From: Phycisphaeraceae bacterium
Lineage (GTDB): Bacteria > Planctomycetota > Phycisphaerae > Phycisphaerales > UBA1924
Direction of reading: 5' to 3'
DNA: 64,000 nucleotides
Assembly (NCBI GenBank): GCA_019636625.1
Contig: JAHBXE010000004.1
Coordinates: forward strand, 1-64,000
Shown: one piece after another, positions 1 to 31,816 of the stretch
Layout: each line of letters begins with the position of its first letter
How positions within the stretch are numbered: the stretch's first letter is position 1
Program-made: the position numbers and the translations under genes
Notes under the pieces: model-generated
The model's database searches: none
The model's input: the letters and a program-made list of their open reading frames with translations, nothing else
What the model was told of the DNA's origin: nothing

Positions 1-94
1 CCGGCTTGTCCGAAGCAAGTGCCCCCCGTTAAGAGAAGCGCACTAACCCCCCCCCCCCCCCCCCAAACATTCTGCGAGCAAAGGACTTGAACAT
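1..94 (-). CDS. N-terminus of a secreted protein with G-run in signal peptide (partial, out of phase)
   Basis: Only the first codons lie in the window; the body runs off the left edge. The start ATG at 94 is preceded by GGAG with good spacing and encodes MFKSFARRMF, a basic n-region. An 18-G run follows. In the ATG frame translation then stops within a few codons (LVRFS, stop). Adding one G (or removing two) opens a frame reading VSALLLTGGTCFGQA, a typical signal-peptide core with cleavage site. The gene is therefore written out of phase in this assembly. Its upstream sequence and first codons match those of the RCC1-type gene at 5271, so it is probably a paralogue of that protein, but its body cannot be seen. 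Confidence 0.6.
47..64. repeat. 18-bp homopolymeric C tract (G on coding strand)
   Basis: Eighteen consecutive C on the plus strand, read as six Gly codons on the minus strand inside a signal-peptide coding region. Such tracts are highly slippage-prone and are also hard to sequence. Confidence 0.95.
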
Positions 95-5134: not shown

Positions 5135-5293
5135 CGACAGTTTTTCTTGCATTCTTATGGAATTGAACTAGACTCAGGGTGTACGCTCTGGTATGCCATC
5201 GCTCGACCTCCCGATTTTCGGACCCATGCGGGCCCGCCGTGGAGGTGTCGAGTGACGATGGAGAAATGACATGTTCAAGTCCTTTGATCCGCA
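5135..5293 (+). repeat. Duplicated promoter-leader-N-terminus module, copy B
   Basis: Plus-strand counterpart of the copy at 64-233 in inverted orientation. It holds TTGCAT-16-TAGACT, a hairpin at 5219-5236 (7-bp stem with one A-C mismatch), GATGGAGAAATGAC before the start, and the same first five codons. Conservation of the stem despite sequence changes in the loop suggests the leader hairpin matters. Confidence 0.75.
5147..5174 (+). promoter_or_regulatory. Sigma70-like promoter of the phase-variable RCC1 gene
   Basis: TTGCAT (5147-5152), 16-bp spacer, TAGACT (5169-5174). The ATG at 5271 leaves a leader of roughly 90 nt containing the hairpin at 5219-5236. Conserved in copy A. Confidence 0.5.
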
Positions 5294-6283
5294 GGGGGGG
5301 GGGGGGGGGGGGCGTTCGTTGGCGCGGTGCTGATGTGCGTTTCAAGTAGCGCGGGGCAGACTGCGGGGACGGCGATTTGCTGGGGTTGGGACTTCAACGG
5401 TGAGTGCACACCGCCGAGCGGTCAGAAGTTCGTCAAGGTTTCGGCGGGGCACAGATTCAGTCTGGGGATCAACTCCAACAACCAGATAGTGCATTGGGGA
5501 TGGACAGCGAACGGGCGAGGGAATATCCCCTCCGGCGACGTCTTCGTACAGGTGTCGGCTGGCTACGACCACGGCCTCGCACTTGATGCCACCGGCAACG
5601 TGTACGCGTGGGGAGGCGGAGACCCCAACGCGGGCCTCGGCTGGGATCAAGGAACGGTCCCGAGTGATCCAAGAGGCGATAGTGTGTACACCCAGGTCTC
5701 TGCGGGTGAGGCATTCAACCTCGTTCTTCGCGCCGATGGCACGATCTGGCACTGGGGTCGCGACTCCGAGGGTCAAGATGACATTCCACACAACGAGACT
5801 GGAGCGTCCGGGTTCGTTCCGTACGTTGCCATCGATGCCGGGGGACACCACGGCATCGGTTTGAGAGCTGATGGCTCGATTCAAGTGTGGGGTGGTCAGA
5901 ACTACACGTGTACAACACAGGGAGTCTTGCCGTCCTTTCCTTCCGACACACCGTTCATCGCCGTCGGGGCAGGGCACATCACCAGTTACGCGGTGAAGTC
6001 CGACCGGTCGGTCGTTTGGTGGGGCGGGTGCAATGGGTGCAACACCGAACCGGTCAACCACATAGACATTCAGCACGCGTTTATTGATGGAGGCTACGGT
6101 CATGCGTACGCACGAACGGCCAGCTCGCACGTGTATGCTTGGGGCAGTCCCTGCACTCCGGGAGGAGGCACGCTTGTCTTTGCTGAGCCGCACGAGGTGC
6201 CGTCTTTCCTGGCCAACGCGGTTGTGCTGTCGGCCGCAACCGGCCACAGCAACCACCACAACATCGTCATCATCATGGACTGA
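5271..6283 (+). CDS. Secreted RCC1-repeat protein with 19-G run in signal peptide (frame split)
   Basis: The start ATG at 5271 (MFKSFDPQ, with GGAG upstream) reads into a G run at 5294-5312 and then stops at 5331. The frame that encodes the signal-peptide core (AFVGAVLMCVSSSAGQ) and about 310 residues of RCC1 repeats is displaced: it needs 20 or 17 G instead of 19. In phase the product would be 336-337 residues. The body shows RCC1-type blades (FVKVSAGHRFSLGINSNNQI, VYAWGGGDP, IWHWGRDSEGQ), a seven-bladed propeller fold used for protein binding. Unlike its neighbours it has no dockerin and ends NIVIIMD. A GTG at 5327 could start translation internally but would lose most of the signal peptide. 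Either it is switched off in this isolate or the tract length is an assembly error. Confidence 0.7.
5294..5312. repeat. 19-bp homopolymeric G tract in signal-peptide coding region
   Basis: Nineteen G counting the last base of a CAG codon, then CGTTCG. Tract length modulo 3 decides whether the ATG at 5271 connects to the secreted-protein frame. Confidence 0.95.
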
Positions 6284-25224: not shown

Positions 25225-26962
25225 CTAAGGCTCCTCGTTGAACACAGCGCGACGGGTCAGAACGTCGAAGCCGGTTGAACTTCCATTCCAGACGTCGCTC
25301 GCGACCACGAGATGATGGAGCGGGTCTCCGATCTGAAAGAACGGGTTGACGATGAGTGCGCGTGGAAGGTCCCCGCCCGATGCGGAGCCAGAGTAATCCA
25401 GCGGGTCCACATGCCACGGTTTTGAATCTGGGTTTGTGGGGCTGGTGCTCTCGAACGAAGAAAAGACGACGATGCGAGAGTTCGTGTCCGAGGCGCTCGT
25501 GGGCACCTGGCCAGCGGCGTAGACATAGAACCACTCAAGAGGGTCCCCGGGCGGGCTTGTGCTCGTGGTAAGATCGATCCGTACGGCACTGCACACATCC
25601 GAGATGTTGATGGCCGGCGCAAGGGGGTTGTTCATCCACGCCGTCCACCGAAGGCTGGGGCTCCCGCTGTTCTCGTTGTACAGCGCCACCACCGCGTCAT
25701 TCCCGCGGGAAGCATCGCGCCGGGTGTGCCCGCCGATCGCGATCATCCGCGGCAGGCCGCTGCCGCCGGGGAACATGTCGAGCGCCAGCGCCTCGCCCGC
25801 AAAGGGTGTTTCGGGATTACCATCATCGAAACTGAACCGAGTGAGATAGTCCCCGGAGTTGAAGAGGTCGATCTTGGCCAGGAACATGAACGAGTCCTCG
25901 ATGCCGCTGGCCTTGCCCGCGATGTACACCTGATCGGCGTCAACCCCGGACACGGCGTGGCCCCGCATGGCATTGGCCGTGAACCACTCTCCGGTGTACA
26001 TCAGGTCGATCTGGTGCTGCTCCCACACGCTCGGCTTGTAATCGACCGCGCGGTAGCACGCCGCGAACAGGTAGTTCGAGCCCGGGATCGCCGGGTTCGT
26101 GTAGGTCCCAGCAATCTGAAAGCGACTGTTCGGGTATGGACCATAGCTGTCCGGAAATATGTTGATCCCGCACACCTTGTAGGCCGCGCTGCCAGCCTGC
26201 AGGAAGTTCATGCCGAGAATCTGCCCCGAGTCGCTGTCGTACAGGATCGTGTGGGCATCCCACCCGCCCGCATGGTAACAGTTGCCGGTGACGCCTACGA
26301 CCGTCGTCACGGTCGGCTCGGGGTAGCTGTAGTAGTTCACGCCGGGACCGGCGGCGATGTCAACCGGATAGTCGTCCACGAGGCCGGGAAGCGTCGCCAC
26401 CGGTCCCGGCCGACTGTGCGTGTGCGACCAGAGGGGCATTCCCAAACTCCCACCCCAGCACACCGTATGGAAGTCCGTGTTGCCGTGCTGCGTCGCTTGG
26501 CTGTACCCGGTCACGATCACGCGGGCCGAGCCGGTTGTGCCGTCGCTGCCACCGCCCCCACATCCTCCCTGTACAACCTCCATCGCTGTTGGAACAAAGT
26601 AGTTGGTGGAACTTGGCTCGCTCGGCCAGACCACCGGTGAACCAAACGCCTCACCCGTGTCATACCGGTATCGCAAAAGCGTCAACGCCCAACCGCCATC
26701 GCTTGGTGTGCCAATCCATGTCTTCGCCGCGACCACGAGAAGCCTCGTAGCAGTGTCTCCGCAGCCCTTTCGAATCGACAGTGGTCGGGTATCAATCACC
26801 AGATCCGCATGAACCGTTCCGCCCTGGCCCGTGTGCGGCGCCGGCGCTGATGCTCCCCATACATCAAGCAGCGATGGTTGAGCTGTCGCCACGGCACTAC
26901 CCATACCCCCCCCCTAACATCACCGCAAGAACCCCCCAAACCAACCCAGTTCTCCGCTTCAT
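25225..26962 (-). CDS. Secreted protein of unknown function, signal peptide split at a 9-G run
   Basis: The body (559 residues when read from the ATG at 26904) begins MGSAVATAQPSLL, the end of a signal peptide. The natural start is the ATG at 26962: AGGAG sits 6 nt upstream and it encodes MKRRTGLVWGVLAVML, a perfect n- and h-region. The 9-G run at 26906-26914 puts the two out of phase; 8 or 11 G would join them into a 578-579 residue protein. As written translation from 26962 stops after 21 codons. The body contains HTRRDASRGNDAVVALY and other beta-rich repeats with no recognised domain and no dockerin. It is followed after one base by a dockerin protein gene. Confidence 0.68.
26906..26914. 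repeat. 9-bp G tract (C on plus strand) in a signal-peptide coding region
   Basis: Separates the ribosome-binding site and signal-peptide start from the body of the secreted protein. Length modulo 3 sets the frame. Confidence 0.9.
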
Positions 26963-30982: not shown

Positions 30983-31816
30983 CTAGTTCCTCCGCTCTTC
31001 GTCAATCGGCAACGGTTCCCACGATAGAAACTTCCCCAGCGACACCATCATCGTGCCCCGCGGGCTTCCCTGGCCACCCATCTGGAACCGTCCACCGTAC
31101 CGCGCCACCAGCTCCCCGCCCCCGCGCCCCCGCGGCACCCAGACATCCACCACCGTGCTCCACACCTCCGGCTCCAGCACCAGCAGCCGACGCGCCGTCT
31201 CCCGCTGCAACGCCGACAGGTCCCCCGCCGAGAACGCCGTGTTCAGGTCCGCTTCCGTCACCTCCCCATCCCGCCGCGCCGCCACAAGACTCTCCGCAAA
31301 CCGCCGCCCGCTCCGCCCCTCGCGTGCGTACGCCGCGATCGCCTCCAGCACCTCCACCGGCGCCGTCATCGCCGACACCGCCACCGGCCCCACCGGCCGC
31401 AGAAACATCCCCCCCCCCCGCCGCAGCCGCCGCGCCCCCACCAGCTTCACCAGTTCATTCAAAGCCCCCTGCGCATCCAGCGACTCGCGCTCGCTCCGAC
31501 CGATCGGATCCGACACCAGCGTCCCCTGCCCGTCAAACAGGTAGATCGACACCACGCTCCCATCCGGTCGCTCGATATCCAGCGCGTGCCCGTCATCCTC
31601 CAGAAGGTCCCGGATCGACTGCCCGATCAGCGTGTCCGTCCACTGCGAAACCACCTCCCGCACCCCGCGCTCAAAGTGCGTGTCCTGGTACGCATGGAGC
31701 TGCCGCGCCACAATCCGCCGCTGCATCGCCTGCCGCTCCAGCACCACCGCCGCCAGCACCCCGGCCACCAGCGCCAGCACGATCACGATCGGCATCGCAA
31801 ACCCGCGCCGGCTCAT
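30983..31816 (-). CDS. GspK-like minor pseudopilin
   Basis: 277 residues. ATG at 31816 overlaps the upstream gene by ATGA. The N-terminus MSRRGFAMPIVIVLALVAGVLAAVV is a prepilin leader with cleavage after Gly5, lacking the Glu at +5 as GspK does. Length and the large globular domain also fit GspK, which caps the pseudopilus tip. Inside the gene a run of 11 C (31409-31419) encodes RRGGGMF; the frame is intact here but the run is slippage-prone. Confidence 0.7.
   Translation of the reverse strand: MSRRGFAMPIVIVLALVAGVLAAVVLERQAMQRRIVARQLHAYQDTHFERGVREVVSQWTDTLIGQSIRDLLEDDGHALDIERPDGSVVSIYLFDGQGTLVSDPIGRSERESLDAQGALNELVKLVGARRLRRGGGMFLRPVGPVAVSAMTAPVEVLEAIAAYAREGRSGRRFAESLVAARRDGEVTEADLNTAFSAGDLSALQRETARRLLVLEPEVWSTVVDVWVPRGRGGGELVARYGGRFQMGGQGSPRGTMMVSLGKFLSWEPLPIDEERRN

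Follow-up and report, generated by a model that had tools for sequence, protein, structure and literature searches.

Poly-G contingency loci have been studied mainly in host-associated bacteria. Those of Campylobacter act mostly in surface-carbohydrate and flagellar modification and are not confined to signal peptides, and the poly-G run of the Neisseria pilC genes reportedly lies in the signal-peptide region, as Jonsson et al. are said to have described in 1991. Two G tracts in the sortase-pilus genes bbr_0113 and bbr_1889 of Bifidobacterium breve UCC2003 provide the closest worked example for the locus considered here (Penno et al. 2022, PMC9187656): a short open reading frame (ORF) with the start codon and a Sec signal is followed by a G tract and a long body that is out of phase in the reference. 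These pilus loci are OFF in the majority, the downstream genes of the cluster are silenced by polarity, and the population is mixed in tract length (PMC9187656). In Neisseria, pilC1 and pilC2 carry poly-G within the reading frame (G(9-20) for pilC; PMC5953494), and every member of the opa multigene family switches independently through a repeat in the leader-peptide-coding region (PMC3960869). The Campylobacter phasome (PhasomeIt, PMC6321876) comprises many poly-G genes per genome, with tracts of 9G (52%) and 10G (30%) being most common.

We analyzed a window of 64,000 nucleotides at the start of contig C34 in a Phycisphaerae metagenome-assembled genome (MAG; G000, 3.7 Mb, 41 contigs), which holds a gene of the same general layout (Table 1). 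Positions 5271-5335 read ATGTTCAAGTCCTTTGATCCGCA-G19-CGTTCGTTGGCGCGGTGCTGATG, the count of 19 being unreliable (the run is long and its exact length uncertain) because the assembly breaks and turns noisy at G tracts. As assembled, the ORF from ATG 5271 has 20 codons and ends at a TGA (5331-5333); the RCC1 body (322 codons, 5315-6280, stop 6281-6283) lies one base out of phase with this ATG, and in the remaining phase a stop follows 11 codons past the run. The computed frames bear out the initial annotation, which had placed a 19-G run inside the signal peptide of an RCC1-repeat protein, with a ribosome-binding site (RBS) before ATG 5271, start and body joined by 17 or 20 G, and other phases ending within about 30 codons. 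Pfam profile PF13540 recognizes four repeats in the body (E=7e-28), and the joined frame, judged by eye, has a charged n-region, the hydrophobic core AFVGAVLMCV, and small residues before AGQ. GTG 5327, the other start that had been considered, is unlikely: a product begun there would lack the core of the signal peptide, no separate RBS precedes it, and the RBS, the ATG, and the n-region at 5271 are conserved in paralogues. Modelled as a first-order Markov chain, the window should contain about 0.0002 G/C runs of 18 or longer, and 2 are observed (C18 and G19).

Table 1. Features of the window associated with G tracts in signal-peptide-coding regions
Feature	Position	Strand	Basis
Leader common to paralogues, with the RBS GGAG (5260-5263) at its end	5195-5270	+	Copies elsewhere in the genome (see text)
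Start codon and signal-peptide n-region MFKSFDPQ	5271-5294	+	Frame analysis
G19 tract, proposed slippage switch; body in phase at 17 or 20 G	5294-5312	+	Tract and frames
Remainder of the predicted signal peptide, FVGAVLMCVSSSAGQ, and putatively secreted RCC1-repeat protein, 'a'	5315-6283	+	Pfam, paralogues
RCC1 gene 'b': signal-peptide-like N terminus, C-terminal LTANDFQCFLN repeats, no good start codon	6284-7322	+	
5' end of second RCC1 'a' paralogue, MFKSFARRMF and G18, running off the contig start	1-94	-	Leader and frame
G18 tract of the second paralogue (C18 on the + strand)	47-64	-	Run scan
Secreted protein gene: MKRRTGLVWGVLAVML, G9, and 559-codon body, no Pfam match	25225-26962	-	Same layout
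G9 tract of the preceding gene; one out of phase (8 or 11 G joins)	26906-26914	-	

The annotation had treated the locus as a single one; the locus itself stands, and its singleness does not, since the genome holds five RCC1 'a' paralogues and six more genes of this kind. All five 'a' genes carry a G run at the same place of the signal peptide (9, 12, 12, 18, and 19 G), and the window copy is 48-75% identical to the other four. The paralogues in contigs C21, C3, and C23 (67-75% identity) have tracts of G9, G12, and G12, respectively, placed after the n-region and ahead of the hydrophobic core AFVGAVLMC. Copies of the leader that are 83-84% identical lie at C34:72-170(-) and C23:13750-13848(-), with partial copies at C21:15780 and C3:13280. 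At the position of MFKSFDPQ, the paralogues encode MFKSFARRLF, MFRSFARKLL, and MFTLFGRKGMSGV; the n-region of the 5271 copy is atypical. The paralogue at the very start of the window has the same leader as the 5271 copy, followed by ATGTTCAAGTCCTTTGCTCGCAGAATGTTT and G18; its body resumes at the start of contig C7 (G000:C7:1-1006), so that a single RCC1 gene is divided between C34 and C7, the break falling at its G tract.

Downstream of each of the five 'a' genes lies another RCC1 gene, 'b', and the same tandem is present in G020, a genome of a second genus described below. The 'b' ATG sits inside the 3' end of 'a' in the C21, C3, and C23 paralogues; in the window copy, this ATG is lost (AATGACC to AACCACC), which leaves 'b' without a good start directly after the 'a' stop. 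The window 'b' may be silent, use another start, or, as is probable, rely on 'a' being translated. A +1 frameshift fusing 'a' to 'b' was dropped as a candidate once the 'b' ATG had been found inside 'a' in three paralogues.

The layout extends beyond the RCC1 family: at least 11 putative secreted-protein genes of G000 have a G run inside the export signal, namely, the five RCC1 'a' genes and six others. Five of the latter were found with a search pattern of an RBS, an ATG, 20-60 bases, and G8 or longer (C34:26962(-), G9; C13:34694(-), G11; C23:41391(-), G10; C41:7894, G9; and C13:6195, G9); the sixth (C13 near 90(-)), whose G26 lies at the end of a contig, was picked up by eye. The bodies of the five testable non-RCC1 genes span 525-575 codons and have no meaningful Pfam or NCBIfam match. 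Two of these genes, C34:26962(-) and C13:34694(-), share the N-terminal cassette MKRRTGLVWGV. In G020, loci L208 and L220 have one start cassette (ATGCGACTGAAGCGTGCT...GCGTT plus a G run) before different bodies, which suggests shuffling of switch cassettes between genes.

Several further G runs of G000 were recorded alongside these genes. One of the window itself is a C11 at 31409-31419 (G11 on the minus strand). At G000:C41:69437 (L084), an in-phase G12 lies just past a signal peptide and is translated as the glycine linker EGGGGGGGGQ; it might serve as a contrast case. A G13 run at G000:C13:52026-52039 is part of a promoter-like arrangement, TTGACA-GAATAGT-G13-TATTCT (L048 1490-1545), upstream of AAGGAGGTGACCCATG, and is flanked by an 11-base inverted repeat (TTGACAGAATA / TATTCTGTCAA); switching by the length of the spacer between -35 and -10 is possible there.

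Poly-G runs of 12 or longer occur in 120 of the 150 genomes of the family, but their placement in signal peptides is concentrated. G runs of 10 as such are not above Markov expectation, and those of about 12 or more are. A stricter pattern (RBS-ATG-(signal)-G8) gave 9 matches in G000, 13 in G020, and none when reversed. Across a class-wide sample of 198 genomes, the pattern matched 8 times in G000 and at most 3 times in any other genome, so the genome of the window alone stands out there. G020 (MAG JAEUIZ01) has about 13-14 such genes, among them RCC1 homologues (35-39% identity) with 8-11 G in the signal peptide, several of which are then followed by a 'b' gene. Isolated clear cases were seen in G103, G123, G121, G125, G090, and others. 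G090, a 4.2-Mb genome of the same family, contains more than 250 G/C runs of 12 or longer, far more than its relatives. A single-sequence scan of the named genomes for RCC1 relatives with tracts found none, and a profile scan of the named genomes found a signal-peptide G run in 4 of 80 RCC1 loci, all four from JAEUIZ01.

Frame states were counted in 33 genes, chosen by eye for a clear body ORF and a signal-like start (G002, G128, G065, G093, G105, and L084 were left out), with all tract lengths taken from MAG consensus sequence. Start and body share a frame in 5 genes; the tract exceeds the joining length by one G in 21 (ON+1) and falls short of it by one in 7 (ON-1). This departs from equal thirds (chi-square 13.8), with a p of about 0.001 that is optimistic because the genes were selected by eye and include paralogues, which are not independent of one another. 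A single programmed ribosomal frameshift does not account for these states, as 21 genes would need a shift of -1, 7 a shift of +1, and 5 no shift. Changes of one G in length join or split the start and body ORFs, and tract length differs among close copies, the comparison being one of paralogues, not strains: near-identical leaders precede tracts of 8, 10, and 11 G in G020 and of 9 and 10 G in G125, and two close paralogues of G121 have 9 G (in phase) and 11 G (out of phase).

Despite their out-of-phase assembly, the bodies are under purifying selection. The dN/dS of the C21/C3 pair of RCC1 genes is 0.12 (dS 0.56), that of the other RCC1 pairs with finite dS is 0.10-0.13 (0.22 against C7), the G103/G123 pair gives 0.32, and pairs within G020 give 0.16-0.32; the proteins must therefore be made at least sometimes. 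GGG makes up just 21-26% of the glycine codons in tract genes, indicating that the pure-G runs are kept as DNA and not for the glycines that they encode.

We consider it probable, and the best explanation of these patterns, that a multigene set (at least 11 genes in G000) undergoes phase variation by slipped-strand mispairing and is mostly OFF in the sampled cells. Mispairing at replication would lengthen or shorten the G run within the part of the gene that encodes the signal peptide. Whenever the run had a permitted length (17 or 20 G at this locus), a single frame would extend from the start codon through the signal peptide into the RCC1 body, and the beta-propeller would be exported; at the other lengths translation would end within about 30 codons. 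Paralogues would switch independently, so that each cell might present a different subset of secreted RCC1 and other proteins, with most loci OFF in the sampled majority. The 'b' genes that overlap 'a' would probably co-switch through translational coupling and polarity. The on/off contingency locus proposed by the initial annotation is thus the reading best supported by the genomic data, in view of its recurrence in paralogues, unrelated genes, and other genera, the purifying selection, and the tract lengths of 8-12 G. MutS is present in both G000 and G020, so a high slippage rate is not explained by its loss, and loss of mismatch repair was set aside as a cause on this MutS result.

One rival reading holds that the genes contain stable in-phase glycine runs and that the frameshifts are sequencing or assembly miscounts of the consensus. 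Contigs do end, and tract edges are noisy, at G runs: 11 of 30 tested contig starts have a G/C run of 10 or longer within 200 bases, compared with 0.6% of background windows, some contig ends consist of 30-65 G with garbled neighbors, and the tract at which C34 ends reappears in garbled form at the beginning of C7. Moreover, Penno et al. (PMC9187656) found mixed G-tract lengths in B. breve that disagreed with the count in the database, and they document an Illumina "G's end" artefact. The count of 19 may be affected in this way, as perhaps may the odd n-region MFKSFDPQ, which would then also be unreliable. Most tracts, however, have just 8-12 G, lengths that short reads handle well (G020 was probably assembled from short reads, as its contigs bear MEGAHIT-style k141 names), and loss of G would yield one too few, whereas 21 of the 28 out-of-phase genes have one too many. 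Nor would stable glycine runs remain pure GGG at the codon usage given above. Artefact thus leaves the phenomenon standing, and we regard miscounting as an unlikely explanation of the whole. Decay of frameshifted copies into pseudogenes would fit starts that are out of phase and a window 'b' without a clear start codon, but the bodies are intact over 139-789 codons, frame breaks are found nowhere but at the G run, and dN/dS is 0.10-0.32 across out-of-phase pairs; this reading is very improbable and already largely refuted by the dN/dS values.

Simple neutral switching would not be expected to produce the excess of ON+1 genes (21/33); selection for the OFF state together with insertion-biased slippage might account for it, as might recoding. 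Under recoding, the tract would be kept out of phase and slippage of RNA polymerase or ribosome would give a steady minority of full-length protein, in keeping with the strong bias toward one phase and with bodies conserved although out of phase. Both out-of-phase classes and in-phase genes occur, however, even among close paralogues, which argues against a single programmed shift, and such slippage is documented mainly on A/T runs (the runs analyzed in PMC1088944), so that recoding appears quite improbable. A broader and, in our judgment, doubtful idea is that of a designed default: signal-peptide genes of several genera (tracts of 9-12) might be kept off frame by one G, their expression depending on biased replication slippage or on transcriptional or ribosomal slippage, as a coordinated, "mostly silent" secretome of a Phycisphaerae type.

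If phase variation is the correct reading, random display of secreted proteins would be useful outside animal hosts, for instance, in phage escape, under grazing, or on changing surfaces, given that the hosts of the multi-family set are uncultured, presumably free-living planctomycete relatives. In practical terms, the G runs explain assembly breaks, and gene callers miss or truncate secreted proteins of this kind. A search of the open-access literature found no paper joining Phycisphaerae with phase variation, and poly-G switching seems not to have been described previously in the planctomycete branch.

Compared with the known systems, the putative Phycisphaerae switches are most like the B. 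breve pilus loci in their order of start, export signal, tract, and out-of-phase body; unlike those two loci, which encode pilins in Actinomycetota, they comprise RCC1 propellers and unknown families at 11 or more loci and are described here from consensus sequence. They share with Neisseria pilC the poly-G within the reading frame, whereas pilC consists of two paralogues for pilus-tip proteins in a different phylum, with no sequence relation to the RCC1 set. The opa genes offer a parallel for a multigene family with a repeat in the leader-coding region, but their repeat is a CTCTT pentamer and their product an outer-membrane barrel. With the Campylobacter phasome, they have in common the many poly-G genes per genome and the matching tract lengths of 8-12 G. 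The novelty lies in the lineage, in how many loci there are, in the phase bias, and in the protein families concerned (RCC1 and unnamed secreted ones), and the proposed mechanism would work like that of known poly-G contingency loci.
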